This document shows, in pieces, positions 5,339 to 34,341 of a stretch of 64,000 nucleotides of DNA (within the stretch, counting starts at the first letter, position 1; each line of letters begins with the position of its first letter). Source of the DNA: Rhizosphaericola mali (lineage in GTDB: Bacteria > Bacteroidota > Bacteroidia > Chitinophagales > Chitinophagaceae); NCBI RefSeq assembly GCF_004337365.2, contig NZ_CP044016.1, positions 2,046,001 to 2,110,000 on the forward strand. The letters are read 5' to 3'. The notes beneath the pieces are model-generated. The model was not told where the DNA came from, ran no database searches, and saw nothing but the letters and a program-made list of their open reading frames with translations. The translations under genes and the position numbers were made by a program.

Positions 5339-5827
5339 TCACAAGAGTCCTTCATTTGCAAAAGATTGATAACTATCTGTAGTAAGGATTAGATGATCCA
5401 GTAGTGTAATATCCATTAGTTTGGCTGCATCTTTCAATCTTTCTGTAATCTTCAGATCAGCAGTACTGGCAGTTAGATTCCCACTCGGATGATTGTGTGC
5501 CACAATAATTTTACAAGCATTAGATTTTAAAGCTACCGTAAGTAAAATTCGAATATCTACAATAGTTCCAGCGGTACCACCTGTAGAACCGTGATATACA
5601 CCGAGGACTCTGTTAGCATTATTCATAAGAAGCATTTTGAAAGATTCCACCAATTCCATTTCATCTTCGTTCCAAACAGATCTAAAAAGCGAAAGTGCAT
5701 CTTCTGCCATATTGATTTTAGGTCTTTGTGTAGCTTTTATTTTGTTGCGATAAGATAGTTGAACTTCTTGTAATTCGGACCAATGAAGTTCATTTTCTCT
5801 GGTTGCTGTTGAGTTGTAAGTTTTCAT
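5339..5827 (-). CDS. RadC-like JAB/MPN domain protein (copy A)
   Basis: This is a 162-residue short RadC (YkfG/YeeS-like, lacking the N-terminal helix-hairpin-helix part). It shows the JAMM metal-binding motif HNHPSGNLTASTAD and the C-terminal LLDHLILTTDSYQSFAN. The frame is open further upstream, but ATG 5827 is chosen. From there the protein aligns with copy B (30677-31168), while the upstream part lies inside a conserved hairpin. The two copies are about 80 percent identical by eye. Short RadC proteins are typical of plasmids and integrative elements, with unproven function in repair or early transfer. It follows the mob genes on the same strand. Confidence 0.85.
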   Translation of the reverse strand: MKTYNSTATRENELHWSELQEVQLSYRNKIKATQRPKINMAEDALSLFRSVWNEDEMELVESFKMLLMNNANRVLGVYHGSTGGTAGTIVDIRILLTVALKSNACKIIVAHNHPSGNLTASTADLKITERLKDAAKLMDITLLDHLILTTDSYQSFANEGLL

Positions 5828-5856
5828 GATGTACTGTTTTTGTGTAACAGCGATAA

Positions 5857-5952
5857 AAGACGGTTCTCTAAAAAGAAGGCAGTACGTGGAATAGCGGAGC
5901 GTAGTGAGCATATGCCGTCGAAAGCTGCCTGCTTTTTAAAGAGAACCGTCTT
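5857..5952 (-). promoter_or_regulatory. large conserved hairpin ahead of radC (copy A)
   Basis: A 13-bp perfect stem (5857-5869 with 5940-5952) is followed by an inner stem of 13 bp with one mismatch (5873-5885 region with 5924-5936 region). These close a loop of about 40 nt. The loop contains GCATATGC and is nearly identical to that of copy B at 30549-30647. The stem sequences differ between the copies but stay complementary, so the structure rather than the arm sequence is conserved. Flanking blocks CACTAAGCTAAG and CTGTTACACAAAAACAG are also shared. It ends about 30 bp before the radC ATG. Confidence 0.75.
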
Positions 5953-6104
5953 AGCTTAGTGGAACTAAAAACGGTACATAAAATCTTACAACAGAAGAAG
6001 GAAAAAATTAAACTAAAACGATCATTACTCTGAAAATAAAATTGAATACGTACACAAAATAAACTGTCCCAAATTTGTATAAAATATGTGACAACAAAAG
6101 TTGA

Positions 6105-6716: not shown

Positions 6717-7793
6717 TTACATAGATAATTTTACTTTTCTTTTTTCTTTGAGGCGTTTTTTTTCTTCTGACTCATCCATCCCCATCGCACCAAAATAAAC
6801 GCTATCAATATCTACCTTAAGAGGACTAATCATATAATCAATCAGAGCTTTTGTCACTGTTTCAATAGTTACACTTTCACTAATATTATTTTTAGATGTT
6901 GGATGAACTTGACGAGGCATGAATCTATCTCTTAGGCGCAAAGTAGACTTAGATATTTTATCATTTATATCACCCCTTGCCAAGGCAATATTTCTTTCTA
7001 ATTGTACTAGTTGAGACGGACTCAATGGAGCTTTCTGTTGTTTTTTATTAAAGGCAATGATTTTCTCAATTTTAGAAAGACTACATCCTAAGGAACTCGC
7101 TTTAAAATAAATTCCAGAGGATTGATGTACAATTCCCAGTCCCCTTCCTTTGTGTAAACTATAACCGGCTTTTTGCATTTGTATAATAAATTCCAACATG
7201 GACGTTGCCTTATAAAGTGCATTTTTCAAAACCATTCTAGCTTGCAACTGCCGAGCATTCCAATGCTGTTTTTCGTTATTCGAACTATTTAATTTCTGTT
7301 TCCAAGTCTTCGGTGTCTTGACTTGTTTTAGATGAAATAGCATTTCACATTTTCGGGAAATTTTCATTAATCTTTGCTTGGACTGAAACAGATTTACAAC
7401 TTGTCTACCATCAATTGGAGGACGAACAATGATCGCATGGTAGTGATCCTTACTCTCCGGACTAGTGTGTTTACAAAGTAAAAACATATTCTCGTCTAGT
7501 TTGAACTCCTTCATTACCATTGCTGCCAATTGTAATTCTTGCGCTGCATTTAAAAATTCTCCTTCACTTAAAGAAAAGATCGCATGAAATAGCGGTTGAC
7601 TGCAACGGTTGTTATTTAAGTCCAATGCCATCTGCATTTGCGCCACAATTTCATCAGTATGTTCTCCTACAAGTGCATTTTGAAAAATGATTTGAGCTTT
7701 TTCTTCCGGATGTTTTAATCCATTTTCTCTAAGTACATAAGAGACCATATTAGAAATTGAAGACGCTTTTGCGGTAGTTTGTTTAGCGATCAT
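6717..7793 (-). CDS. relaxase/mobilisation nuclease (module A)
   Basis: This 358-residue relaxase nicks the transfer origin and pilots single-stranded DNA during conjugative mobilisation. The start MIAKQTTAKASSISNMVSYV and the metal-binding histidine motif at His117/His119 (KDHYHAIIVRPP) fit the relaxase/MobA-VirD2 domain. Helical segments continue to the C-terminus. It is preceded by the MobC-like gene (gap about 75 bp) and followed by a coiled-coil membrane protein. There is no coupling protein or transfer-pore gene nearby, so it would need a helper element. Confidence 0.8.
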   Translation of the reverse strand: MIAKQTTAKASSISNMVSYVLRENGLKHPEEKAQIIFQNALVGEHTDEIVAQMQMALDLNNNRCSQPLFHAIFSLSEGEFLNAAQELQLAAMVMKEFKLDENMFLLCKHTSPESKDHYHAIIVRPPIDGRQVVNLFQSKQRLMKISRKCEMLFHLKQVKTPKTWKQKLNSSNNEKQHWNARQLQARMVLKNALYKATSMLEFIIQMQKAGYSLHKGRGLGIVHQSSGIYFKASSLGCSLSKIEKIIAFNKKQQKAPLSPSQLVQLERNIALARGDINDKISKSTLRLRDRFMPRQVHPTSKNNISESVTIETVTKALIDYMISPLKVDIDSVYFGAMGMDESEEKKRLKEKRKVKLSM

Positions 7794-7867: not shown

Positions 7868-8194
7868 CTACTGAACCGCTTTTTTTATTTCACCAGCGAG
7901 ATAAAGGATTCTTTCACCATAGAATCGCAGTTCCTTTTCAGAAATATTCTGCACCGCTCCTTGGTGTAAATGGCGAACCAATTGGTTGAAATTGGAAGCC
8001 GTAAGTGTCAACGTCAAAACTACTTTGGATACAGAAGCAGGAATGGTTTTAAGGTACATTTTGATCTCGACTTTTCTAGCTGCTTCAATCAAAAAATGAG
8101 AAATGGGTAATTCAGATTGCCTAGCCTTCGAGTAAATACTACGGTATTCTTCAGGAGTGACGAGTATATTTAAACGACGTGTTTTATTTTTCAT
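7868..8194 (-). CDS. MobC-like plasmid mobilisation protein (module A)
   Basis: From ATG 8194 the protein has 108 residues. It opens with a basic ribbon-helix-helix-like segment (MKNKTRRLNILVTPEEYRSI). It then has the helical part typical of MobC proteins, ending with the pattern TASNFNQLVRHLHQ that recurs as NNFNQIVRRIN in module B. MobC-type proteins bind oriT and help the relaxase open it. Upstream codons 8195-8278 are open, but the ribbon-helix-helix start supports 8194. Confidence 0.75.
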   Translation of the reverse strand: MKNKTRRLNILVTPEEYRSIYSKARQSELPISHFLIEAARKVEIKMYLKTIPASVSKVVLTLTLTASNFNQLVRHLHQGAVQNISEKELRFYGERILYLAGEIKKAVQ

Positions 8195-8290
8195 ATACTT
8201 GGATTTGAAAATAAATAAATGACGAATGCGACAGTCATGAGAGAATAGATAATTTGGGCCTCGCATGAGTATGCCCAACCTGCTTGCTAT

Positions 8291-22287: not shown

Positions 22288-23532
22288 ATGTTGGTTATGG
22301 CAAAACTTAATCCCACTTTATCCATCTTATTTTGGCTTAATCGCCAAAGAAGTAAAAACGAAACTTTTCCAATTTACGCCCGTATTACACTGAATGGGAA
22401 GCGGATGGAATTATCCACTCATTTGTATCTAAATCCATCTCAATGGGACCAAAAGAATCAGCGTGTGAAAGGGGCTGGAGAACAATCTCGTAAAATCAAT
22501 ATTTCTCTTACGCAAATTTCAGGTTCCTTGCAGGGATTATATACAAAATTATCTCTACTAGAAAGTCCGATATCATTAGAAATATTGAAAAATACCTATT
22601 TGGGGAAAAAGGTTAATCAAAAAAGTTTGCTGGAAGTCTTTGCTTTGCATAATCAAAGATTCTTCGCAAAAGTCGCATCTGGTCGCAACAGTGATCGTAC
22701 CTACAAAAGATATGAAATAACAAAAGAGAAAGTTTCTACATTCCTAAATGAACAGTATAAGTTAGACGATCTACCGTTGTCTCAAATACAGTTTGGCTTA
22801 GCATCTGATTTCGAACATTACCTGTGTAACGTGACCAAGATTGGTTCCAATACAGCCATGAAATACATCAAAATCACAAAACAGGTTTTGAAGTTCGCTG
22901 TAGATCAAGGATGGATACCCTATAATCCAATTGGAGGATTTAAGTGCAACTATGAAAATCCACAAAGGGAAATTCTAACTATGGAAGAAATTGAAAGAAT
23001 TTATAATAAATCTTTACTACCTAGATTGGCGCAAGTGAGGGATGTATATATATTTTGTTGTTTTACCGGATTAGCATTTACGGATGTAATGCAGCTTACG
23101 GCTAGCAATATTATAACTGGCATGGATGGCGAAAAATGGATTATAACAGATCGTCAAAAAACAGGAACATTGGAAGAAGTTCCGCTTTTACCTGTTGCTC
23201 TTGAAATTTTGGAGAAGTATAGCTGTAATATAGTATTACAGAAAAAGAAACAATTACTTCCTTTATGTAGCAATCAACGCTTTAATGGTTATTTACAGGA
23301 AATTGCAGATATCTGTGGCATAGATAAACATCTTACATCTCATACGGCAAGACATACTTTTGCAACTACCGTTACACTCGAAAATGATGTACCAATTGAA
23401 ACAGTTAGCCGAATGTTGGGACATAAAAGCATTCGGACTACTCAAATTTATGCGAAAATAACCCGAAAGAAGATTAGCAACAATATGCGCACTTTAAAAG
23501 ACAAACTTAAAATGGGTAGTGAAGCACACTAA
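22288..23532 (+). CDS. tyrosine site-specific recombinase (integrase B)
   Basis: This 414-residue integrase has an arm-binding N-terminal domain (SILFWLNRQRSKNETFPIYA), a SAM-like core-binding domain (about 110-210) and a catalytic domain. The catalytic domain shows the second box HTARHTFATTVTLEND, GHKSIRTTQIYAKI with the final His and the nucleophilic Tyr, and a first box FCCFTGLAFTDVMQLT. In that first box the usual Arg position reads Ala-Phe-Thr-Asp. This TGLAFTD variant is common in Bacteroidota integrases. It reads inward from the left att and is the enzyme expected to move the 22-kb element. ATG 22297 is an alternative start. Confidence 0.9.
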   Translation: MLVMAKLNPTLSILFWLNRQRSKNETFPIYARITLNGKRMELSTHLYLNPSQWDQKNQRVKGAGEQSRKINISLTQISGSLQGLYTKLSLLESPISLEILKNTYLGKKVNQKSLLEVFALHNQRFFAKVASGRNSDRTYKRYEITKEKVSTFLNEQYKLDDLPLSQIQFGLASDFEHYLCNVTKIGSNTAMKYIKITKQVLKFAVDQGWIPYNPIGGFKCNYENPQREILTMEEIERIYNKSLLPRLAQVRDVYIFCCFTGLAFTDVMQLTASNIITGMDGEKWIITDRQKTGTLEEVPLLPVALEILEKYSCNIVLQKKKQLLPLCSNQRFNGYLQEIADICGIDKHLTSHTARHTFATTVTLENDVPIETVSRMLGHKSIRTTQIYAKITRKKISNNMRTLKDKLKMGSEAH

Positions 23533-23571
23533 GTATAAATTAAACGTATATAGTAATTATAAACATGTATT

Positions 23572-23635
23572 TATTTAGTTTTAAAAGGACTAAATAGGCT
23601 AGGCTCTGTATACTATAAAAATAAAATGGTACTAT
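23572..23635. repeat. 64-bp direct repeat, copy 1 (left of the 4-kb cargo block)
   Basis: It is identical at 61 of 64 positions to 27590-27653. It contains ATTTAGT...ACTAAAT as an inverted repeat, and just at its end begins a hairpin (AAAATGG ... CCATTTT) that continues to 23648. It lies 40 bp after the integrase-B stop, so it could be that gene's terminator duplicated by an insertion. Confidence 0.75.
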
Positions 23636-23831
23636 GAAAGTGCCATTTTGATAGGATATTTAAAGACATAGAAAAGTTATAAACTAATCCAAATAGCAAG
23701 TTGAGTAAAGAATTAAAAGAACTATACTAGATAACTACTTATCATTGTACTTCCTAATTGGATAACAGAATGATAATATAATTATTTTTTGAGATAATCA
23801 TTTAAGAGTCTGATTAAATGGATTTGTTAAC

Positions 23832-24988
23832 TTATTTCATGCTTCGTTTTTGGTAGTTTATCGCAAATATAAATATGGAAGTTATTGCCCCAATAATAGC
23901 TGATGTTAAAAATGCATATTGTATATGAGTAAATAGTTCTGTAAAAAATGAGGACAAGAATTGCCCCCCAAAAATTCCCATAGAATAATATCCTAGATTT
24001 TTTCCTCTTTCTTCTGAACTGCTACTCTGAACCATCCAATGATTTAATAACGGAACGGTCATTCCAAATCCAATTCCCATGCTAATCGCGCCACAAAATA
24101 ATAAAGGTACATTTGAAGCCACATAAAAAAGTAAAAGTCCAATCATAAAAAAAAGAAAACCTGTACCAATTGTGGGCTCTGTACCAATTTTAAAAACAAA
24201 TTTTGGCATCTGACTTGCACATATCACGGCAACCAATGATATGAAAGCCATAAAGTAACCCGTTTGTGATTCCGAAAACTTAAACATCTCTGGAAGCAAT
24301 AAGGGTAAACCAACAAATGCTGTAAAAAACAAGATCATCGATACTAAAGAACATAAGACTATAATGCATACAATGCTTGTTTTCTTTGTATTTGTTTTAT
24401 TGACATTTAAGTCATGGCTTGTTTTAGGAATTATAGTTATTTGCGGAATAGATATTTTTTGCAATATCAAACAAATAAAAGCAATAAGATAAATTGCGAA
24501 GGGGTAAAACCAGTCCATTCCACCCAATATACCTCCAACACTAAGAAAAACAACGCCGCCTAATCTATAGCCATGCCTTGCCATGCTATCATTTTCATTC
24601 TCTTTTCCCCTTGAAAAAGTTCAGCTATCAATACAGTCCCTGATGCCTGTATTGCTGCTGTAGCTCCACCTAGTAAAATACGATCAATAACAACCAATGA
24701 TGGGTATTTTAAAAATGCACCTCCAAAACCAAATATTGCATAAGGTATCAAACCTAAAATCATCATATTATATGCACCTTTTCGATCTATTAATCGCCCC
24801 ATTACAGGTGCAAATAATACCACTCCCAATGATGGCAAAGTGACAAGCCATCCTGGACTTTTTGAAAATCCAAGTTGCGCGGCTATTTGGTATAATGATG
24901 GAGCTATTACAGTACCAACCATAATTGTTAAGCTACTGATAAGAAGAATCGTAAAGATTCCAGTATTAGACACTTTTAAATTTTGCAT
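23832..24988 (-). pseudogene. MFS transporter broken by a single-base frameshift
   Basis: Two overlapping frames together make one MFS drug/metabolite exporter of about 385 residues and 12 membrane segments. The first frame starts at ATG 24988, shows the loop motif APVMGRLIDRKGAYN, and stops at 24560. The second continues with LGGVVFLSVGGILGG in the next frame to 23832. Adding one T to the run at about 24560-24563 restores a continuous protein. The gene is divergent from the AraC gene at 25114, a common regulator/transporter pairing. It is either a true pseudogene or a sequencing error in a short T run. Confidence 0.8.
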
Positions 24989-25113
24989 ATTTAAAATTTT
25001 ATGCAAAGGTCATTATATAACCTTATCCTATTGTTATCTTATTTCCCAAATAGCTAGTACAATTTGGAAATTTAATAAACTGGGTATAGTTTTAGATAAA
25101 TAATTTGAATTAA

Positions 25114-25941
25114 ATGAAATTTCAAAATATCAAATCGACTAACTATAGTCACCTTTTAGATCCTTCTAAGTTTGTGGTTTCAGAATTAACCCAAAATCAT
25201 AATAATAAAATATTTAAAACGAATCAAGTTCTATTGTTTAAGATGTTTTGGTATCATGAGAATATTAATAGAAATGAGGATGCCTCCCGACTTAATACTA
25301 TATTATTCGTACCTCCTTCACAAACGTTAAACAAATCTATTTTTTATGAGGAAGGGTTTATTATCGCATTTGACAGAGAATATCTTCAAGAAGACGATAA
25401 AGAATTTTCAATAGATGTCTTCAATCTCTTTAATTCAGATGAACAAAATCGAAAACTAATTATATCAAAAGAGGTTGAAGATAATCTAAATCATGTTATG
25501 CAATTAATGAGATTTGAGGTAGATAATGAGTTTGGAAGTTTTTTAGTATTAAAACCACTCGTTAAGGTCTTTCTATTGCAGTTAATACGATTGTCTCAAA
25601 ACAAGTTTTTAAAACAGGACGTTCATCAGAAAAGAATTTATCAGTTTTTAATGTTATTGGAAGAGAATTTTATAACTCAAAGGAAATGCAGTTTTTATGC
25701 CAACCACTTAGGTTTAAGTGCTAAAAGATTAAATCAGATATTAAACACTAAAATGAATACAACTGTCACTCAACAGATTCATTCAAGGCTGTTACTAGAA
25801 GCGAAAAGAATGTTGGTAGAAAGTGAATTGACAATCAAGGAAATTGCGTACAATCTTCAATTTAATGATCATTCTTATTTTAGCCGATTTTTTAAAAAAA
25901 ATAGTGGCTTTACTCCAGAAGAATATAAAAAGCATAATTAA
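25114..25941 (+). CDS. AraC-family transcriptional regulator (cargo block)
   Basis: The 275-residue protein has an N-terminal ligand-sensing part (residues 1-165, beta-rich) and a C-terminal double helix-turn-helix of AraC type. The latter is seen in FYANHLGLSAKRLNQILNTK, LTIKEIAYNLQFNDHSYFSR and FFKKNSGFTPEEYKK. It is divergent from the frameshifted MFS gene 107 bp away and most likely regulates it. This layout (AraC, MFS exporter) is typical of Bacteroidota accessory regions. The effector is unknown. Confidence 0.85.
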   Translation: MKFQNIKSTNYSHLLDPSKFVVSELTQNHNNKIFKTNQVLLFKMFWYHENINRNEDASRLNTILFVPPSQTLNKSIFYEEGFIIAFDREYLQEDDKEFSIDVFNLFNSDEQNRKLIISKEVEDNLNHVMQLMRFEVDNEFGSFLVLKPLVKVFLLQLIRLSQNKFLKQDVHQKRIYQFLMLLEENFITQRKCSFYANHLGLSAKRLNQILNTKMNTTVTQQIHSRLLLEAKRMLVESELTIKEIAYNLQFNDHSYFSRFFKKNSGFTPEEYKKHN

Positions 25942-26123
25942 TTATGTTAACAATGAGTCTTTTACTACTTTATTTTGTATATTGATTCTAGATTCCATCA
26001 TGTTAAAGGTATTTCAATATTATTATCAGTTGAGTTTATCTTAGCTTAAATGCATAATAGCTTAATTTTAATTTCTACTAACGTGGCGAAGTCTACAAAT
26101 TGTTCTTTTGTAAACATAAAAAT

Positions 26124-26723
26124 TTAGAATAGAGTTTGCGGCGTGGTTAGATATGGATAAAATAGACTTTTTAACATTTTACAGTGTTCTCTTACGGCTT
26201 CCTTTCCTTCTTTTCGAAAACTTGCTTCATTATAAGCTATCCAAAAATCACCTACAATAAAAATCTGACGTACTAAATATAAAAATTGCTTCTCTGGTAT
26301 ATCTTTTCGGAATATTTTTTTCTGAACAAGCTGTAGGAAAATTTCTAAAAATTCAACTTTCCTACGCTTATTTATGTCAATGTAAGCACTTCGTATCTTT
26401 TGATTTTTTTGGGATAGAGATTGAAAATTTAAAGGAACAAATTTGTACTTATGTACTAGAACAACGGAATCTACAATAAATTGATTTAGAGAATCCAGTG
26501 AAAAATGGTGCTGATTTTGCAACGTTGCCATTAGCGTATCAAATTCTTTCTCAAATGCATGAAAGAGCTGTATTAAAATGTCTTCTGTGTGTTTAAAATG
26601 GTAGTGTAAATTCCCTGCGCTAATAGCTATATCCTTAGCAATATCTCTAGTTGTGATGTTGTCAATACCGTACTTGTTATATAAAAATCGCGCACTCTCT
26701 AATATTTTTTCTTTTGTAGACAC
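26124..26723 (-). CDS. TetR-family repressor
   Basis: The protein has about 199 residues. The N-terminal TetR helix-turn-helix is clear (KEKILESARFLYNKYGIDNI, then TTRDIAKDIAISAGNLHYHF). The rest is an all-helical ligand/dimerisation domain. GTG 26723 is preferred as start because TTG 26729 lies inside the adjoining palindrome. The divergent small membrane-protein genes begin 55 bp away with a perfect operator between, so the repressor likely controls itself and them. Confidence 0.85.
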   Translation of the reverse strand: MSTKEKILESARFLYNKYGIDNITTRDIAKDIAISAGNLHYHFKHTEDILIQLFHAFEKEFDTLMATLQNQHHFSLDSLNQFIVDSVVLVHKYKFVPLNFQSLSQKNQKIRSAYIDINKRRKVEFLEIFLQLVQKKIFRKDIPEKQFLYLVRQIFIVGDFWIAYNEASFRKEGKEAVREHCKMLKSLFYPYLTTPQTLF

Positions 26724-26726
26724 ATC

Positions 26727-26754
26727 CAAAATTAGAACAAATGTTCTAATTTTG
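26727..26754. promoter_or_regulatory. perfect 13-bp inverted repeat: TetR operator
   Basis: CAAAATTAGAACA (26727-26739) and its exact reverse complement (26742-26754) are separated by AA. This 28-bp palindrome sits between the divergent TetR gene and the gene at 26779. Its size and place match an autoregulatory TetR operator covering both promoters. Confidence 0.8.
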
Positions 26755-26778
26755 TAAAAATTATTATATTCGAATATT

Positions 26779-26973
26779 ATGAAAAACGAAAAAAGTCGAC
26801 TTAAAAATTATTTCAAAGATTTATATAAAAATTTTAGAGAGTCTGTACTTCCGTTAAATGAAAAGGATTCTACAATAAAAAAATATTCTAAAAATATCGG
26901 AGCATCTGCAATATTGGTGCTTGCAGTAGTCGTATTTTCTGTTGTAGTGCTTGCTATAAGTTTCGTTTTATGA
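26779..26973 (+). CDS. small single-pass membrane protein under TetR control
   Basis: The 64-residue protein has a charged N-terminal half (MKNEKSRLKNYFKDLYKNFR) and one C-terminal transmembrane helix (ASAILVLAVVVFSVVVLAIS). It starts 24 bp after the TetR operator and overlaps the next gene by 4 bp (ATGA), so the two are translationally coupled. No family is recognised. Confidence 0.6.
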   Translation: MKNEKSRLKNYFKDLYKNFRESVLPLNEKDSTIKKYSKNIGASAILVLAVVVFSVVVLAISFVL

Positions 26974-27338
26974 AAATAAGGCTATGTGATAAATATTTTA
27001 GAATGTATGTATTAAGTTGGTCTTGTGTACATATACTCAGATTTTTAAAGTTCCCTATTCCAATTCTGAATAACTGGTTGACTGATTTTTTCTTTATTCC
27101 TTTTATATTTCACTTATCCTATTATTTACATAATCTATGTTCTAAATGTAATTTTTACATCTATCCCAAGAGAATAATTTTACTTATTGCATTGATATGC
27201 GGTATTTTATTTGAATTCATATTACCATGTTTTAATTCAAATTATACTGCGGATATATTTGACATAATTTTCTATTTTTTGGGAGCTCTATTTTATAATT
27301 TTATTCATCAGAATTACTATATAAATAAGTATTCTTAA
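26970..27338 (+). CDS. small multi-pass membrane protein
   Basis: The 122-residue protein has about three to four hydrophobic segments and short loops (FPIPILNNWLTDFFFIPFIF, then IILLIALICGILFEFILPCF, IFDIIFYFLGALFYNF). The pattern of an Asp before a helix and a later Asp-Ile-Phe-Asp helix resembles small Bacteroidota proteins often annotated as magnesium-citrate transporter-like, though this is weak. It is coupled to the 64-residue gene by a 4-bp overlap and is probably repressed by the neighbouring TetR protein. Confidence 0.6.
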   Translation: MKIRLCDKYFRMYVLSWSCVHILRFLKFPIPILNNWLTDFFFIPFIFHLSYYLHNLCSKCNFYIYPKRIILLIALICGILFEFILPCFNSNYTADIFDIIFYFLGALFYNFIHQNYYINKYS

Positions 27339-27589
27339 TTAACTTTTGACCATTCAGATAATATTGATTTTTAGATTGTTTAAGTTTCGTTTAAACACCG
27401 TTTTGTTTAAGAATGGAACGAAAGTTCGGTATTCTAGTTTTGAAACCATTAAAAAATTTAGTAAAATGTCATTGGTATATGATCTGTTTGAAGTATCTTT
27501 TTTTATTTTTCCTAAATGCACAATAGGTTAATAATAGTTTTTTAAGGCAGCTAATTACAACAAGGTGCAGAAATCTGTGGAGTAAAAAG

Positions 27590-27653
27590 TATTTAGTTTT
27601 TAAAGGACTAAATAGGCTTGGCTCTGTATACTATAAAAACAAAATGGTACTAT
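27590..27653. repeat. 64-bp direct repeat, copy 2 (right of the 4-kb cargo block)
   Basis: It matches 23572-23635 with three substitutions. The following hairpin (AAAATGGTAC ... GTACCATTTT, ending near 27666) keeps its pairing although the bases differ from copy 1. It faces the stop of the HU gene. If the block between the copies were removed, integrase B and HU would converge on one shared terminator. Confidence 0.75.
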
Positions 27654-27721
27654 AAGTACCATTTTGTTTGATTTTTTAAATCTACAAAAAATCCTACTAG
27701 CTTATTACTAAGATCAATGTA

Positions 27722-28021
27722 TTATTTCTTAGTTTTTTTCTTTGGCTTTACATTCAAAGCTTCACTGACGGCTTTGCCAGCTTTAAATTTAGCCACTTTA
27801 CTAGCTTTTATTTTGATAGTCTCACCAGTTTGAGGGTTGCGACCATCGCGTGCTGAACGCTCAGATACACTAAAAGTACCAAAGCCAATTAATGTAATAG
27901 AATCACCACCAGCCAATGTTTCGGTTACTGATTGGGTAAATGCATCTAATACTTTAGCCGCATCAGTTTTAGTTGTACCTGATTTAGAAGCCAAAAGATC
28001 AATTAATTCAGATTTGTTCAT
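27722..28021 (-). CDS. HU/IHF-family DNA-bending protein
   Basis: This 99-residue HU family protein is recognised by MNKSELIDLLASKSGTTKTD, the beta-arm region GFGTFSVSERSARDGRNPQT and a basic C-terminus (KPKKKTKK). HU proteins bend DNA, and tyrosine recombinase excision complexes commonly need them or IHF. Its presence inside the element, near the integrase, may supply that accessory function, but host-type nucleoid roles are equally possible. Confidence 0.9.
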   Translation of the reverse strand: MNKSELIDLLASKSGTTKTDAAKVLDAFTQSVTETLAGGDSITLIGFGTFSVSERSARDGRNPQTGETIKIKASKVAKFKAGKAVSEALNVKPKKKTKK

Positions 28022-28295
28022 GAGGATATGAGTTTTAAAATTTCTATTTAGAATTTGAATTTACACAAACAGTGCCAATATCCAAACACATCTGTCTCCC
28101 TTTCATAATTCATCCAAACACGAATCCTTCTAATGTAAAGGTTGAAAATCGGCATTTCTAAAACAAACCAAAATTTCGGGACCTGAATTAATGCCTAGAC
28201 AAAATTGGAATGTATCAAAGACAATGACAAGATTAGCAATGTTTTTTTTAATAACTAGTACATAATAGTCAAAAGAAGTACAGATAGAATGGAAG

Positions 28296-29252
28296 ATGCT
28301 CCATCATTCAAATCTATTAGTTAATATGCGTAAATTAGAGAATCAATCAATTATCCCAATCATGACACTTATCCCTAATTTTTCAGGCAGCTTGTTTTGG
28401 CGTACCATGAAGGCGTCCTTATTTGGCAGAACAGAAACCTCTAATCAACCTGGGAACTTCAAATCCTATTTCCAGTATCAAATAGGAAAGAATAGTACCG
28501 GATATGATTTGTTCTTTTCCAAGGAGCCTAATGCGCAGCAGTATTACAACGAAGCATTTGGTAAGATGGCAGGCTACTTACCCATTGAGATGTCTGATTT
28601 TCTTTCGTACCATTATCAGGCGTACACCAACAATGAAGAATTTTTACATTTCCTGACATTAGAATTAGCACACAGAATAAGAAATGCAGGTTCTCAAGCA
28701 TACAGAAAGAAACTCGAAATAGCTGTCGATTGGCTAAATACACAAAAAGATACACGTTTGGAGGTAAACAGAAATGCTATGAGAGTGTCTGTAAGAGCAG
28801 ATTTGGATACGGTTTTAGCTCAAAGCGAAAAAGAGGCTCTATCTGCAGAGAGGATGGAGGAAATTGTTGGAAATCTAGCTATCCGAATGGAAGATAGAAT
28901 GAATAGCGTCATAGATTCCGCAGAAAACGAAATACAACAAATAACCAGTGGACTTAGCACAGGAAATATCCAATTGTCCAATCGAGAACACGAAGGTCTT
29001 ATAATACGATTTTTTATCCTCTTACAACAAGTACAAGCTCCAAGTTCTAACAATAATGAATCTATAAAATATTTGTTTGCTAATTTTTCTAAAACAGATT
29101 TAGCAGCTTTTTTACGAATGCACTTTGAAGCCTTTCGAAGCTACAAGACGAGCACGCTCCAAAAGATGATTACCTCACAACAAGAGCGAATCAAACCTCA
29201 ACACGAAAAGGTGAAACAATTGGAAGAGGCTATGGTTAATTTTTTTTATTGA
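28296..29252 (+). CDS. hypothetical protein of the mobile element
   Basis: The 318-residue soluble protein belongs to no family I recognise. The N-terminal 120 residues contain aromatic-rich segments (SFQYQIGKNSTGYDLFF would be typical; the sequence reads FKSYFQYQIGKNSTGYDLFF). Residues 140-318 are mainly helical, with long amphipathic stretches that may form coiled coils (QQERIKPQHEKVKQLEEAM). ATG 28326 or a later Met may be the true start. It precedes the zeta toxin module on the same strand. Confidence 0.55.
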   Translation: MLHHSNLLVNMRKLENQSIIPIMTLIPNFSGSLFWRTMKASLFGRTETSNQPGNFKSYFQYQIGKNSTGYDLFFSKEPNAQQYYNEAFGKMAGYLPIEMSDFLSYHYQAYTNNEEFLHFLTLELAHRIRNAGSQAYRKKLEIAVDWLNTQKDTRLEVNRNAMRVSVRADLDTVLAQSEKEALSAERMEEIVGNLAIRMEDRMNSVIDSAENEIQQITSGLSTGNIQLSNREHEGLIIRFFILLQQVQAPSSNNNESIKYLFANFSKTDLAAFLRMHFEAFRSYKTSTLQKMITSQQERIKPQHEKVKQLEEAMVNFFY

Positions 29253-29413
29253 GTATTGGCAAGAAGTATACTATTATGGAAATATAAATCATTATAAAAT
29301 AGTTAGTTCAAGTTCGTTTTTACATAAGAGAAGTTAGCTAGCTATGGAAATCAGTAGATAAATGTTTAATTTTGAATAGGTAGAAACAAAATATAATCAT
29401 TAAATATTAATTT

Positions 29414-29635
29414 ATGGAAGAAACGTTAAAAGATTTAAAAGACGAAGAATTGGTTTCCTTTGGAACTATGGATAAGTCCCCTTCGAATATGTCTGAAAAG
29501 GAATATGAAGAATGGAAGATAAAAAGTAAAGACTTTGTGCGTGAATATCTCTTTTCTATTAATCAACCACTCGTCTATGAAAAGGACGGCGTGATGGTTG
29601 CAGAGTATAAAAATGGAAAAGTTGTAAATATATAG
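29414..29635 (+). CDS. probable antitoxin of the zeta-like toxin
   Basis: The 73-residue acidic protein (MEETLKDLKDEELVSFGTMD) ends 5 bp before the zeta-like kinase gene. Small size, acidity and tight linkage fit an antitoxin. It has no recognisable similarity to streptococcal epsilon by eye, so the role rests on context. The C-terminal segment EKDGVMVAEYKNGKVV looks beta-hairpin-like. Confidence 0.55.
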   Translation: MEETLKDLKDEELVSFGTMDKSPSNMSEKEYEEWKIKSKDFVREYLFSINQPLVYEKDGVMVAEYKNGKVVNI

Positions 29636-29640
29636 CTTAT

Positions 29641-30333
29641 ATGGCCAGAATTTACATTATCGCAGGTGCTCCTGGTGCGGGAAAAAGTACATCTGGTAGA
29701 CTCTTCATACCCAAGGGATTGGAAATTCTGGACTCTGATGATATGTCCCTAAAGTATAAAATAGCTGGCTATACAGATTTCAAAGAAATGGGGCAGCTTA
29801 AATTCAATCGGATATTTAACAATCGACTTTTCTCAAATGCGAATTTTGCCATAGAACTTAATCTAGGGTTTGAACACCATTACAATTATGTAAAAAGAAT
29901 TAAACAGGTCAATTCTGAAAATGAAATAATAGTTGTACTGTTCCATACTGATGATGTAAATCTTTGTCTGGATAGGGCAAAAATGAGAGCGGAAAATGGC
30001 AGACATTTCGTAGCTCCAGATGTTATACAAAGTATGTATGATAATATATTTCCTCTATTCAATAAATATAAAGATCGCTTTAGTGGTCTTATTGCTGTGA
30101 ATGTAGAAAAAACGGGTAATACATATATTAGCATGGAGTATGACTTCAAAAACAAAAAAGCATTGCCAACACTACCTCTTCCAGATTGGGTTAAAAGAGA
30201 ATTTAAAGAACTCATTCGGGATTTGAGTCCCCAAATAAAAAGATTACCACGCCGTAATCCACTACCTCCCCTGACGACCCCGATGAACCTAAAAAAAGTA
30301 GAGGTTTTAGACGCTAAGCTGTTCTTTTCATAA
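29641..30333 (+). CDS. zeta-toxin-like P-loop kinase
   Basis: The 230-residue P-loop protein has Walker A GAPGAGKST at residues 9-17, a Walker B-like ILDSDDM, and the zeta-type segment NGRHFVAPDVIQSMY near residue 120. Zeta toxins phosphorylate UDP-N-acetylglucosamine and block wall synthesis. Others of this family act on other small molecules. The likely antitoxin gene lies 5 bp upstream. In an integrative element such a pair would stabilise inheritance. The basic C-terminal tail (KRLPRRNPLPP) is unusual for zeta. Confidence 0.75.
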   Translation: MARIYIIAGAPGAGKSTSGRLFIPKGLEILDSDDMSLKYKIAGYTDFKEMGQLKFNRIFNNRLFSNANFAIELNLGFEHHYNYVKRIKQVNSENEIIVVLFHTDDVNLCLDRAKMRAENGRHFVAPDVIQSMYDNIFPLFNKYKDRFSGLIAVNVEKTGNTYISMEYDFKNKKALPTLPLPDWVKREFKELIRDLSPQIKRLPRRNPLPPLTTPMNLKKVEVLDAKLFFS

Positions 30334-30548
30334 GTTCTAACTGTAATACTAATAGCATATCAACTTCGATATTATTTGTCCTATAGACTAAATAAACAAC
30401 GCTCATAACTTGAGTTCCAAAATATGTTCTGTATTTGAATAATAACATTACTGTTTATCCCAATTTTTTCATTCCTATGAATTAGCTGTAATTTTCTTAT
30501 AGTAATATGCTGAACAATTTTTCTATTCTGTTTTTTGTTTCACTAAGC

Positions 30549-30647
30549 TAAGAAGGTTTGTATCAAGAATGCTGGCAGCTTTCGACGGCATATGCTCACT
30601 GTGTTCCGCTATTCCACGTTCTACCAGCCTTCTTGCAAACCTTCTTA
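30549..30647 (+). promoter_or_regulatory. large conserved hairpin ahead of radC (copy B)
   Basis: A 12-bp perfect outer stem (30549-30560 with 30636-30647) continues into a 15-bp inner stem with two mismatches (30564-30578 with 30621-30635). The loop of about 40 nt is nearly identical to that of copy A (5857-5952). The two copies differ in the stems yet both pair. CACTAAGCTAAG before it, and CTGTTACACAAAAACAG between it and the ATG at 30677, are also conserved. Confidence 0.75.
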
Positions 30648-30676
30648 TGACGCTGTTACACAAAAACAGTATAAAA

Positions 30677-31168
30677 ATGAAAAAGTACAGCACCATCCAA
30701 GAATTAGAAAATGAACAATCTCATTGGTCAGAACTACAAGAAGTGAAGTTGTCCTATCGTAATAAACTCAAAGCATCTCAAAGACCCAAAATCAATCAGT
30801 CTGAAGATGCTTTGACCCTGTTTAGATCCGTATGGAACGAAAATGAAATGGAACTTGTAGAATCCTTTAAAATGCTTTTAATGAATAATGCCAATAGAGT
30901 GCTTGGTGTATACCATAGTTCTACTGGAGGTTCTACAGGAACTATAGTTGATATTCGCATCTTACTTACGGTAGCTTTAAAATGTAATTCCTGTAAATTG
31001 ATTGTTGCGCATAACCATCCGAGTGGGAACCTTACTCCAAGCCAAGCCGATCTGAAAATGACAGAAAAATTAAAGGAGGCTGCAAAATTGATGGACATTA
31101 CTTTGTTAGATCATTTGATTCTTACCACTGATAGTTATCAATCTTTTGCCGATGAAGGACTCTTATAA
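30677..31168 (+). CDS. RadC-like JAB/MPN domain protein (copy B)
   Basis: This 163-residue short RadC carries the JAMM motif HNHPSGNLTPSQAD. It is close to copy A at 5339-5827, sharing for example NRVLGVYH and TLLDHLILTTDSYQSFA. ATG 30677 is chosen since upstream codons fall in the conserved hairpin. It is located in the element between the zeta module and the mob genes. Keeping its own hairpin in a different gene order from copy A shows that hairpin and radC travel as one unit. Confidence 0.85.
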   Translation: MKKYSTIQELENEQSHWSELQEVKLSYRNKLKASQRPKINQSEDALTLFRSVWNENEMELVESFKMLLMNNANRVLGVYHSSTGGSTGTIVDIRILLTVALKCNSCKLIVAHNHPSGNLTPSQADLKMTEKLKEAAKLMDITLLDHLILTTDSYQSFADEGLL

Positions 31169-31398
31169 GTCCTTCATTTGATTTTTATAACTGTTTTGAT
31201 GTTGCGTTTTTACTATTCAAAATAGAATTGCTATTCAAATGGAGTATTCGGATAAAATATAGTTATATACTTTTTTACAAATCTTAAACTTTACATTATT
31301 CTAAGTTATTGAAAGTCTAACTTCTATTATCTACGCCGCATCTATCCTTGTTTGAAAGTGTTGAACCTGCCATATTGCAGTCCTAAACACAGAACAAT

Positions 31399-31698
31399 AT
31401 GGAAAAATTATTCATCCCCACAGAAGAAGACTTTCGACGTTGGATTGCAGAAGCATTGGAAAGCTCCTTGCGAAAACTTCCACAAATATTAAAAACGCCC
31501 ATGAATGAACCAGAAAAACTACTCAATCGCAAAGAGGTGGCAGGTATTTTTCAAATCTCTTTGGTGACACTACACCAATGGATGCATCAGGGCTTGCCTT
31601 TTCACAAACAAGGCGGAAGAGTTTACTTTCTGCGCTCAGAAGTGATGCATTATTTGAAAGATAAAAATCCCAAACAATTGCAAAATCGCATTGCTTAA
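31399..31698 (+). CDS. helix-turn-helix (HTH_17/excisionase-like) protein
   Basis: The 99-residue protein has an excisionase-type winged helix-turn-helix at residues 45-90 (LLNRKEVAGIFQISLVTLHQ, then a wing GGRVYFLRSEVMHYLKD). The N-terminal 40 residues are helical. Such proteins in Bacteroidota elements act as excisionase or as regulator of mobilisation. The next gene's ATG lies 20 bp downstream. Module A has a counterpart at 8438-8653. Confidence 0.75.
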   Translation: MEKLFIPTEEDFRRWIAEALESSLRKLPQILKTPMNEPEKLLNRKEVAGIFQISLVTLHQWMHQGLPFHKQGGRVYFLRSEVMHYLKDKNPKQLQNRIA

Positions 31699-31717
31699 CT
31701 TTTCAAAACCAAATATT

Positions 31718-32062
31718 ATGGCAGATATTAAAAGAAGAATTCTGGGCTTTAGTACCGGAAAACAAATCAAACTTTATGGCAATAGTCTTTCCATCGGCAA
31801 CGACCTACAAATTGGAGAAGGTGGTGCTCCCAATCTGTTATCCTATCAGGAAACTATCATGAATAAAAATCTTTCCTCCAACAAAGAAGAAGAATTCAAA
31901 TCAGAGGTTAAGAAAAAAGCTTTGGTGATCAATAGTAATAACTTTTCCAAAGAAGAAATCTTTGAACTGGCAGATTATGCCATTAGTTTGTGGATGGAAC
32001 TCAAAGACAGTATCCGAAGATATGGGTTGGATAATCCCAAAATATTCAAGAAAGATAGTTGA
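31718..32062 (+). CDS. small hypothetical protein of the mob module
   Basis: The protein is 114 residues from ATG 31718. The N-terminal part is basic (MADIKRRILGFSTGKQIKLY). The C-terminal part is helical and acidic (KEEIFELADYAISLWMELKD). No family is recognised. It lies between the excisionase-like gene and the oriT candidate, so an accessory role in mobilisation is plausible but unproven. ATG 31718 follows an AACCAAATATT leader and avoids overlap with the upstream stop. Confidence 0.5.
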   Translation: MADIKRRILGFSTGKQIKLYGNSLSIGNDLQIGEGGAPNLLSYQETIMNKNLSSNKEEEFKSEVKKKALVINSNNFSKEEIFELADYAISLWMELKDSIRRYGLDNPKIFKKDS

Positions 32063-32384
32063 ATTACTTGAGTGTATTTAAGTTTCATTGGGCGGGTGAA
32101 AAGAAAAAGAAATTTCAAATTTATACTTTTCATTTTATTGAATCTTGTTGTAAGGTGATAGTTGCTCTTTTACAAACATCCTGATACTATCATCTTAAAC
32201 TTTTGCACTAATATGTTTTAAAGATTTTATAGGGGACAAAAAAGTAGAAAATCAATTCTCTTCAAATTCAACTAGCAAAATAAATGGCGGGCATACGCCT
32301 ATAAGTAAAATCGTTTCTGGCAATATCCATTGCATTTCTTCCTATCAAGAGAGATTGGTAAGCTATTGACATCGTTCGTTCGAT

Positions 32385-32422
32385 GAGCCAGATGTACTGT
32401 TGTATGACAACAGACCTGGCTC
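32385..32422. other. compound palindrome upstream of mob module B (oriT candidate)
   Basis: GAGCCAG (32385-32391) pairs with CTGGCTC (32416-32422). Nested inside, CTGTTGT (32397-32403) pairs with ACAACAG (32407-32413) around a 3-nt loop. It lies in a 444-bp gene-free stretch (32063-32506), 85 bp before the MobC-like gene. That is where a transfer origin is expected. The rest of the stretch shows only short repeats (TCGTTCGTTCGATG, TCGC ... GCGA). Confidence 0.5.
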
Positions 32423-32506
32423 ACTCGCTGCCATAGTTGCGAGAAGACTATAAAAAGGCTCGAAACTCGCCTGTTTTTCATTTTCAATAAATTTAATTAA
32501 TCACTT

Positions 32507-32929
32507 ATGGAAGCTCATAATCCAAACCGAATCCACCGGATAAATTTTCGATTGACAGAAGCAGAACACCAAAAGATATTAGCCTCCTGGCAAAAAAGCT
32601 CCGACCATAAACTCAGCGATTATGGAAGAAAACTATTGTTGGGCAAACCCGTGACCTTTTTTATACGGGATCGATCATTGGATCTTTTCACCGCAGAAAT
32701 GGCCAGACTCCGAAAAGAACTGAAAGCTCTTGGCAATAATTTCAACCAGATCGTCCGACGCATCAACGGGCTGAAAGAATTACCCAGATATGAATTTTGG
32801 TTACAGGATGCCAAGAGAAAACAGGAAATACTATTGGAAATTACCAAAGACATTCAGCAACAAATCAATAAAAATGCTTCGATATGGTATCAAAGATCAT
32901 CACAGGAAAAAGCATCCGAGGAGCCTTAA
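32507..32929 (+). CDS. MobC-like plasmid mobilisation protein (module B)
   Basis: The 140-residue protein opens with a ribbon-helix-helix-type start (RIHRINFRLTEAEHQKILAS). The MobC signature region follows (MARLRKELKALGNNFNQIVR). It binds oriT together with the relaxase. Its 3' end overlaps the relaxase start by 46 nt, the common arrangement for mobC/relaxase pairs. The palindrome at 32385-32422 directly precedes it. Confidence 0.85.
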   Translation: MEAHNPNRIHRINFRLTEAEHQKILASWQKSSDHKLSDYGRKLLLGKPVTFFIRDRSLDLFTAEMARLRKELKALGNNFNQIVRRINGLKELPRYEFWLQDAKRKQEILLEITKDIQQQINKNASIWYQRSSQEKASEEP

Positions 32930-34341
32930 ACTACAATGAAAAGAAAGTTAAGGAAGCAGAGGCTTTTCCTTTGGACTGTAATGGTTATTCAAAATCGATT
33001 TTTCAACTTTCCTTTTCCGAGAAATTGTTGACACTGGAAAGGCAGGTAGCACTCAATGAACGGATAAAAACCAATTGCCTGCATATCAGTCTGAACTTTG
33101 ATCCATCAGAAAAACTATCCCCACAAAAACTGGCAGAAGTAACTTCTTTTTATATGGAAGAATTGGGATTTGGAGAACAACCGTACCTCGTCTATCAACA
33201 TATAGATGTCGGTCATCCACATGTCCACATTATAACCACCAATGTTCAAGAAGATGGAACTGCGATTTCTTTACACAATATTGGGAGAATCAAAAGTGAA
33301 GTCGCCAGAAAGAAAACCGAACTAGAGTTTGGATTGGTCAAAGCAGAAGATCACAAAAACAAAAAGGAAGAACAGCGTATAAAACCTGTAGTTGCCCAAA
33401 AAGTAATCTATGGCAAAGGAGAAACAAAAGCGGCTATTGCAAATGTAGTAAAGTCAGTTATGAGAGATTACCGCTTTACTTCACTGGCAGGATTCAATGC
33501 CGTACTCAAAGGATATAATGTGCAAGCTTACCGGGGAGAACCGAGAACGACTATGTTTGAGAAAGGTGGATTAGCCTATAGTGTACTGGATAGAAATGGA
33601 AAGCGTATTGGTGTTCCTGTGAAAGCAAGTGATCTTTCCGCAAGACCAACATTAAAGAATTTGGAAAAAGTATTTCAGCAGAAAAAAGATTTTACCGGAC
33701 ATTACTACCGAAAAATAAGGGAGGCTATTGACAAAGCAATAAGTAGCAACCTACCGAATTTAAAGGCATTAGAATCTGAATTAAAAAAGGAACAAATAGA
33801 AATGGTCATTTATCAAAATAAACAAATGGTCTACGGTATTGCTTTTACAGACCATACCTCAAAAGTGGTGGTCAATGGAAGTGAACTGGGTAGAAACTAT
33901 TCCGCCAAGAGAATACAAGAACAATTAGGGATTAGAGGGTTGCTGGAAAGAAAACAAAACATGTTGGATCAAGAAAGATTATCTGCATATGCAAAGGGCA
34001 TTCTGACTCAAGGCAATGCTGCAAATGCGCTATCCTATATCTATAGTAATGGTTTAAAATTGGAGGCATCCAACGGAAAATATCAAAACCTTGATTATCG
34101 GCTTTCATTTCAGGATCAAAAAGGTAATTCTTCCATTGGTTTATATGGGAAAACAAGAACCTATCTTGAAGAGCGTAACATCACGCCCGAACTATGTGCG
34201 CATCTGAATAATCATGTACAAGATAATGGAATAAAACTAATACAAGATTACATTCATGGGTTATTTGCTCAACAATTTGAAACTTTATTCGGACATATCA
34301 TACAAGATAAAAAGAAATCTAAACGGCGGATTAATTGGTAA
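32884..34341 (+). CDS. relaxase/mobilisation nuclease (module B)
   Basis: This 485-residue relaxase has an N-terminal segment GKSIRGALNYNEKKV with a candidate nucleophilic Tyr17, and a histidine metal motif GHPHVHIITTN (His111, His113, His115). The long C-terminal part is mainly helical. This matches the relaxase/MobB group typical of Bacteroidota mobilisable elements. It nicks oriT and leads the strand to the recipient. No coupling protein or mating-pore genes follow, so transfer depends on a co-resident conjugative element. It differs clearly from the 358-residue relaxase of module A. Confidence 0.85.
   Translation: MVSKIITGKSIRGALNYNEKKVKEAEAFPLDCNGYSKSIFQLSFSEKLLTLERQVALNERIKTNCLHISLNFDPSEKLSPQKLAEVTSFYMEELGFGEQPYLVYQHIDVGHPHVHIITTNVQEDGTAISLHNIGRIKSEVARKKTELEFGLVKAEDHKNKKEEQRIKPVVAQKVIYGKGETKAAIANVVKSVMRDYRFTSLAGFNAVLKGYNVQAYRGEPRTTMFEKGGLAYSVLDRNGKRIGVPVKASDLSARPTLKNLEKVFQQKKDFTGHYYRKIREAIDKAISSNLPNLKALESELKKEQIEMVIYQNKQMVYGIAFTDHTSKVVVNGSELGRNYSAKRIQEQLGIRGLLERKQNMLDQERLSAYAKGILTQGNAANALSYIYSNGLKLEASNGKYQNLDYRLSFQDQKGNSSIGLYGKTRTYLEERNITPELCAHLNNHVQDNGIKLIQDYIHGLFAQQFETLFGHIIQDKKKSKRRINW

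Follow-up and report, generated by a model that had tools for sequence, protein, structure and literature searches.

A family of covarying hairpins before radC, ssb and other leading-region genes of Bacteroidota mobile elements, predicted to act as a start signal on single-stranded DNA

Single-stranded promoters have been demonstrated for enterobacterial plasmids, and the question raised here is whether two long hairpins of Rhizosphaericola mali, each lying directly before a short radC gene of a mobilisable module, serve a comparable purpose. Both are found in a 64,000-nucleotide stretch of contig NZ_CP044016.1 (positions 2,046,001 to 2,110,000; hereafter the window, to which coordinates refer unless stated otherwise). 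Based on the structure of these hairpins, its covariation, the gene contexts, the co-orientation with relaxases, the strand-specific enrichment of a promoter box and the presence of the core in F, R64 and viral contigs, we consider it probable that the element is a start signal (a promoter, possibly also a primer site) used on single-stranded DNA in leading regions, of conjugative as well as of mobilisable elements. Its function could be that of a promoter, of a second-strand primer, or of both.

Hairpins A (5857-5952) and B (30549-30647) are real structures, as the initial annotation had claimed, since none of the shuffled sequences folds as well (z-scores on the two strands of -7.1 and -5.9 for A and of -4.1 and -6.1 for B) and the two share an exactly matching 26-nt block, GCAGCTTTCGACGGCATATGCTCACT, where chance would give none. 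The hairpins do lie at these positions, but the palindromes are longer than initially described, given that an outer stem (CTGTTTTT/AAAAACAG, which reads CGGTTT/AAACCG in a sister genome) extends them to about 5831-5978 (A, minus strand in the sense of radC) and 30525-30672 (B, plus strand). Each full palindrome thus consists of the outer stem, a variable stem and a conserved core, and is matched by R2, a covariance model built on window-type elements with A and B in its training set, at 5836-5968 (160.9 bits) and 30534-30667 (142.7 bits), respectively. What had been read as a shared loop is indeed conserved between A and B, but it is a structured core with pairs of its own (in A GCAGCTTTCGACGGCATATGCTCACT..TCCGCTATTCCACGTACTGC, at 5879-5928 on the minus strand; in B at 30575-30624 on the plus strand), in which the window-type alignment contains a compensatory change from G-C to C-G. 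The observation that the stems differ in sequence and nevertheless pair also held, with 88.4% of the cells paired and 43 double changes in an alignment of 13 window-type copies (40-51% in slid controls), and with 91.7% paired and 46 double changes among 24 sequences of a wider family from many Bacteroidota genera (slid controls, 41-55%). Read in the sense of the gene, the layout comprises an outer arm with CAAAGnTA, the variable stem, a conserved helix (CAAAAG/CTTTTG or CAAGG/CCTTG), the core CGGCATAAA..TTTATTCCG with its invariant C.T mismatch, and a mirror arm which finishes near the start codon. Upstream of the hairpin, at about 6064-6098 (plus strand) and in class A relatives, there is also a TGTCAC..GTGACA-type dyad, at which a regulator may act when the DNA is duplex.

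In module A, the gene directly after the element is a short radC of 162 residues (5339..5827, minus strand; RadC/JAB domain, PF04002, E 1.8e-34 on the ORF) with the conserved start ATGAAAACTTAC; the gene begins at 5827 and not at 5911, where the listed ORF opens within the hairpin itself. The same strand also carries a MobA/VirD2-type relaxase (6717..7793; PF03432, E 2.6e-14) and a NikA/MobC-like relaxosome accessory protein (7868..8278; PF21983, E 3.3e-9). Module B has an equivalent set on the plus strand, formed by a 163-residue radC directly after the element (30677..31168; PF04002, E 2.4e-36), a MobC/NikA-like protein (32507..32929; PF19514, E 3e-12) and a MobA/VirD2-type relaxase oriented as radC (32884..34341; PF03432, E 1.9e-26). 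A near-identical second copy of this module (window positions of about 22300-34300), hairpin and radC included, lies at about 1.152-1.165 Mb of the same genome and is a recent duplication or transfer.

The two copies initially reported are part of a much larger set. A loop pattern returned 14 matches in the genome and none in the controls, each just upstream of a short radC start, and the R2 search raised the number to 17 copies, 14 of them before short radC genes and three before ssb-DUF932-PRTRC operons (with ssb about 106-110 nt downstream of the element in two of these three). The genome has 15 RadC genes; all 14 short ones carry the hairpin, and the single longer one (a 239-residue frame, 35% identity) is remote from every copy. 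The element does not behave as a mobile repeat unrelated to radC, and the three remaining copies imply that it is not tied to this gene; the promoter role initially proposed is supported with two revisions, namely that the element is not radC-specific and that a role in second-strand priming is compatible with it as well. One radC (4064138-4064626 in genome coordinates) is interrupted by an internal stop, and partial degradation is also seen in its hairpin, which is what one would expect of a gene and a hairpin maintained together. The stretch ATGAAAACG, found 3' of the element before radC, is also retained by the three window-type elements that precede ssb, although in two of them it does not coincide with the start of ssb, and the 3' flank of the element may extend into the coding region. 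We also counted 15 MobA/VirD2-type relaxase matches in this genome, an unusual load of mobilisable elements.

Outside this genome, the search for the structure upstream of other radC genes, proposed in the initial annotation, revealed many more carriers, with the covariation described above. Of the 80 close radC relatives fetched, about 30 have the core 50-117 nt upstream of the start codon, and more than half have no recognisable element; none was found upstream of radC in Pontibacter, Pedobacter and Adhaeribacter plasmids, and a blastn comparison of two elements with plasmids gave no match. R1, a covariance model built on the wider family, produced 55 matches in 38 of 395 genomes of the class and, beyond Bacteroidia, one weak match only. 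R1 gives no score to the window copies, and what links them to the wider family is the core, the layout and the genes that they have in common with it. No Rfam family matches the element at gathering score in the window and eight related loci (short stretches returned at most chance microRNA-precursor matches, far below gathering scores), and we found no published description of this hairpin family in the literature; A and B are members of a previously unlisted family, absent from Rfam.

Among the products of the genes downstream of family members are RadC, SSB, ParB, DUF932, DUF1281, DUF6876, DUF6943, a DnaJ-like protein and ArdC, the last of which is required in recipients and not in donors (PMC7213743). 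The element occurs twice in three loci (L118, L121 and L125), before ssb and before radC, with mobC (and the relaxase, where in view) oriented as the element genes, and twice in L105, before radC and before the antirestriction gene ardC. In one ICE the order is element, ssb, DUF932, further genes, primase, mobC-like gene, relaxase, ParA and tra (names past ssb and DUF932 were assigned by sequence inspection), on a single strand apart from the cargo. Of the downstream genes, radC, ssb, ardC, parB and DUF932 belong to the set of leading-region genes, the first to enter the recipient.

The nearest relaxase is on the strand of the element for all 17 genome copies (within 42 kb for 16 of them), although these are not independent events, because the modules are related. 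Elsewhere, 15 of 18 element-bearing radC loci with mobC or relaxase in view have it on the same strand, the three opposite cases (L108, L132 and L134) being one related group, and the R1 genome matches with a relaxase less than 70 kb away on the contig all agree, except for one weak match; in two Algoriphagus loci (L105 and L107) a TraG homologue is on the opposite strand. In conjugation the mob genes are transferred last, and hence the antisense strand of the leading genes would be the transferred strand. We therefore presume that the transferred strand of the modules is antisense to radC and ssb, a polarity of oriT that we infer.

The promoter boxes are biased to one strand. Bacteroidota promoters have the consensus TTTG / TAnnTTTG (PMC6847099, PMC7366714), and among 65 non-redundant elements an exact TAnnTTTG is present on the antisense strand of the left (outer) arm in 26 (2.9 expected; at most 7 in 200 shuffles), whereas the right arm, read in the sense direction, has none (3.5 expected). 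The stricter TAHHTTTG occurs on the antisense strand in 25 of 73 (2.4 expected), a TTTG lies 17-23 nt from the -7 box, that is, at -33 spacing, in 15 of 53 (2.4 expected), and in DNA folding the -7 box is the least paired segment (0.49, against 0.66-0.83 around it). In duplex DNA this box is directed away from the gene; a double-stranded promoter reading leftward into a divergent gene was considered and rejected, since in 66 of 94 cases the upstream gene is not divergent but shares the strand. In the folded antisense strand, the outer arm is the non-template strand, and transcription would therefore exit the hairpin towards the gene. As the -7 box is on the antisense arm and absent from the sense arm, it is the folded antisense (presumed transferred) strand that would read out the gene, following the principle of the Frpo promoter of the F plasmid with boxes suited to the Bacteroidota sigma factor. 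The window-type copies have a poor -33 region and only a one-mismatch box (TAGCTTAG or TTGCTTTG); in A and B it is TAGCTTAG, on the presumed transferred strand (5952..5959, plus strand, and 30543..30550, minus strand, respectively), and in A, which also has a disfavoured G at -10, it is weak on its own. A scan of the F plasmid Frpo regions for -35/-10 consensus boxes gave nothing on either strand, so that this yardstick could not confirm the rule that the boxes sit on the 3' arm.

It might be argued that the element works instead as RNA, as a structured 5' leader governing translation or termination downstream. Its RNA folds are strong, in conjugative elements it is always just 5' of a gene, and a proteobacterial "radC" motif of this kind is listed in Rfam (RF01754; PMC2864571). 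We nevertheless consider such a leader very unlikely: a sense promoter is not enriched in the regions upstream of the element (3 of 73, 5.4 expected) or in the 5' UTR, nearly all of the window-type forms scored have their better fold on the antisense strand, the element is common to genes of very different function, and it has no Rfam match. Wobble counts show no preference for the sense strand; mismatches (G.T 45, A.C 69) lean towards the antisense strand, and this count was not used as proof of strand, because its entries are not independent.

The mechanism that we favour, that of a start signal on single-stranded DNA, can be outlined as follows, the identity of the transferred strand, transcription and priming being the parts that we infer. 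The transferred strand, antisense to radC and ssb, would fold into a long hairpin on entering the recipient, with the non-template boxes on its 3' arm (the -33 TTTG in the stem and the -7 TAnnTTTG in a partly open loop), and with the 5' arm and the DNA beyond it as template. The host RNA polymerase would then transcribe outward from the base of the hairpin, supplying radC, ssb, ardC and others with early mRNA and, probably, the second strand with a primer. Conversion to duplex would remove the hairpin, leaving boxes that face away from the gene.

The core of the element extends beyond Bacteroidota. In F, R2 matches GCTTTCG-CGGCATAT..ATATTCCACGGTCGGC (25 bits, E 9e-4), a sequence identical in R64 and, in both plasmids, about 100 nt upstream of a leading-region DNA methylase; chance would not be expected to produce the exact core pattern in 20 kb, and at least 5000 plasmids have the F stretch with 95-100% conservation. 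An Frpo/ssi has been described upstream of ecoGIXM, a plasmid methylase gene (PMC7736820). The F leading region (ssb, ParB-like, DUF932, antirestriction and methylase genes) is oriented as traM/J/Y; in it R1 finds nothing and R2 only the site before the methylase, with no match of either model to Frpo1 or Frpo2, and no element was found in the R388 record. Exact matches to the core were found in 29 viral contigs, far above chance by a rough estimate; many of these contigs are 7-14 kb long and many are filamentous-phage-like (five Zot-type proteins of the small contigs were confirmed by Pfam). Most of the coding capacity of the small contigs is opposite the strand of the core motif, an arrangement which also speaks against an RNA leader. 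In known filamentous phages the packaged strand is the coding strand; if this applies here, it carries the same face of the motif as the presumed transferred strand. The viral arms beside the core often have a -35-like TTGAC(A) or TTGAT at the place of the Bacteroidota TTTG, and a -10 box is not enriched in them. This sharing with viral contigs suggests a common host-recognised structure, and we tentatively propose, at somewhat less than even confidence, that filamentous phages, enterobacterial conjugative plasmids and Bacteroidota mobile elements share one general signal for the entry of single-stranded DNA, the structural motif (stem - TTTCG - CGGCATA .. TATTCCACG - stem'), in which the core is kept while stems and promoter boxes are swapped to suit the host polymerase.

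The viral contigs also bear on the main rival to a single-stranded promoter, a hairpin that is primarily a priming signal, that is, a single-strand origin (sso/ssi, as in phage minus-strand origins) for which gene expression would be secondary or absent. The core on the face carried by the coding strand of filamentous-phage-like contigs is in its favour, as are the Frpo transcripts, which act as primers in addition to being mRNA (PMC7736820), and the functional sso of ICEBs1 (PMC4595007). A pure origin needs neither the near-constant distance to the gene start in conjugative elements nor the recurrence before several leading genes of one element, and we regard it as unlikely. Still less probable, to the point of being remote, is that the folded DNA is recognised by some protein besides RNA polymerase (as a relaxosome, recombination or packaging site) and is carried along with the leading genes: this reading would account for a core far more conserved than the stems, including the C.T mismatch, but leaves the one-strand promoter box, the gene-start distance and the multiple copies per element unexplained.

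If the single-stranded start signal is confirmed, it would explain how ssb, antirestriction and RadC genes of gut and soil Bacteroidota elements are expressed on entry, would suggest that RadC is an establishment protein, would let leading regions and the polarity of transfer be read straight from sequence and, through the covariance models, would allow such genes to be found at scale. The Bacteroidota counterpart of Frpo/ssi proposed in the initial annotation is well supported, though not proven, by the leading-gene contexts, the relaxase co-orientation, the antisense-only -7 box of the wider family and the core in F and R64. Like Frpo of the F plasmid and ssi of ColIb-P9 (PMC9849209, PMC7736820, PMC11541004), the element is a long hairpin on the strand presumed here to be transferred, in what is probably the leading region, precedes genes of the ssb, DUF932 and methylase type that are oriented as the transfer operon, is often present in more than one copy per element and would re-form promoter boxes on folding (those of the wider family; the window copies have a one-mismatch -7 and a weak -33). 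It differs from them in its host phylum, its sigma boxes (TTTG/TAnnTTTG) and its shorter hairpins (about 150-220 nt), and is known from sequence alone. The Rfam radC motif RF01754 is also structured and upstream of radC genes, but is listed for Proteobacteria (PMC2864571) and matches neither the window and eight related loci at gathering score nor two short stretches at E up to 10. With the sso of ICEBs1 and rolling-circle plasmids and with M13-type minus-strand origins, the element shares a folded, strand-specific signal, predicted here to be active only in single-stranded form and, for the M13 type, a core present in filamentous-phage-like contigs on a consistent strand face; it is set apart from the sso by its position at gene starts and by its promoter box.
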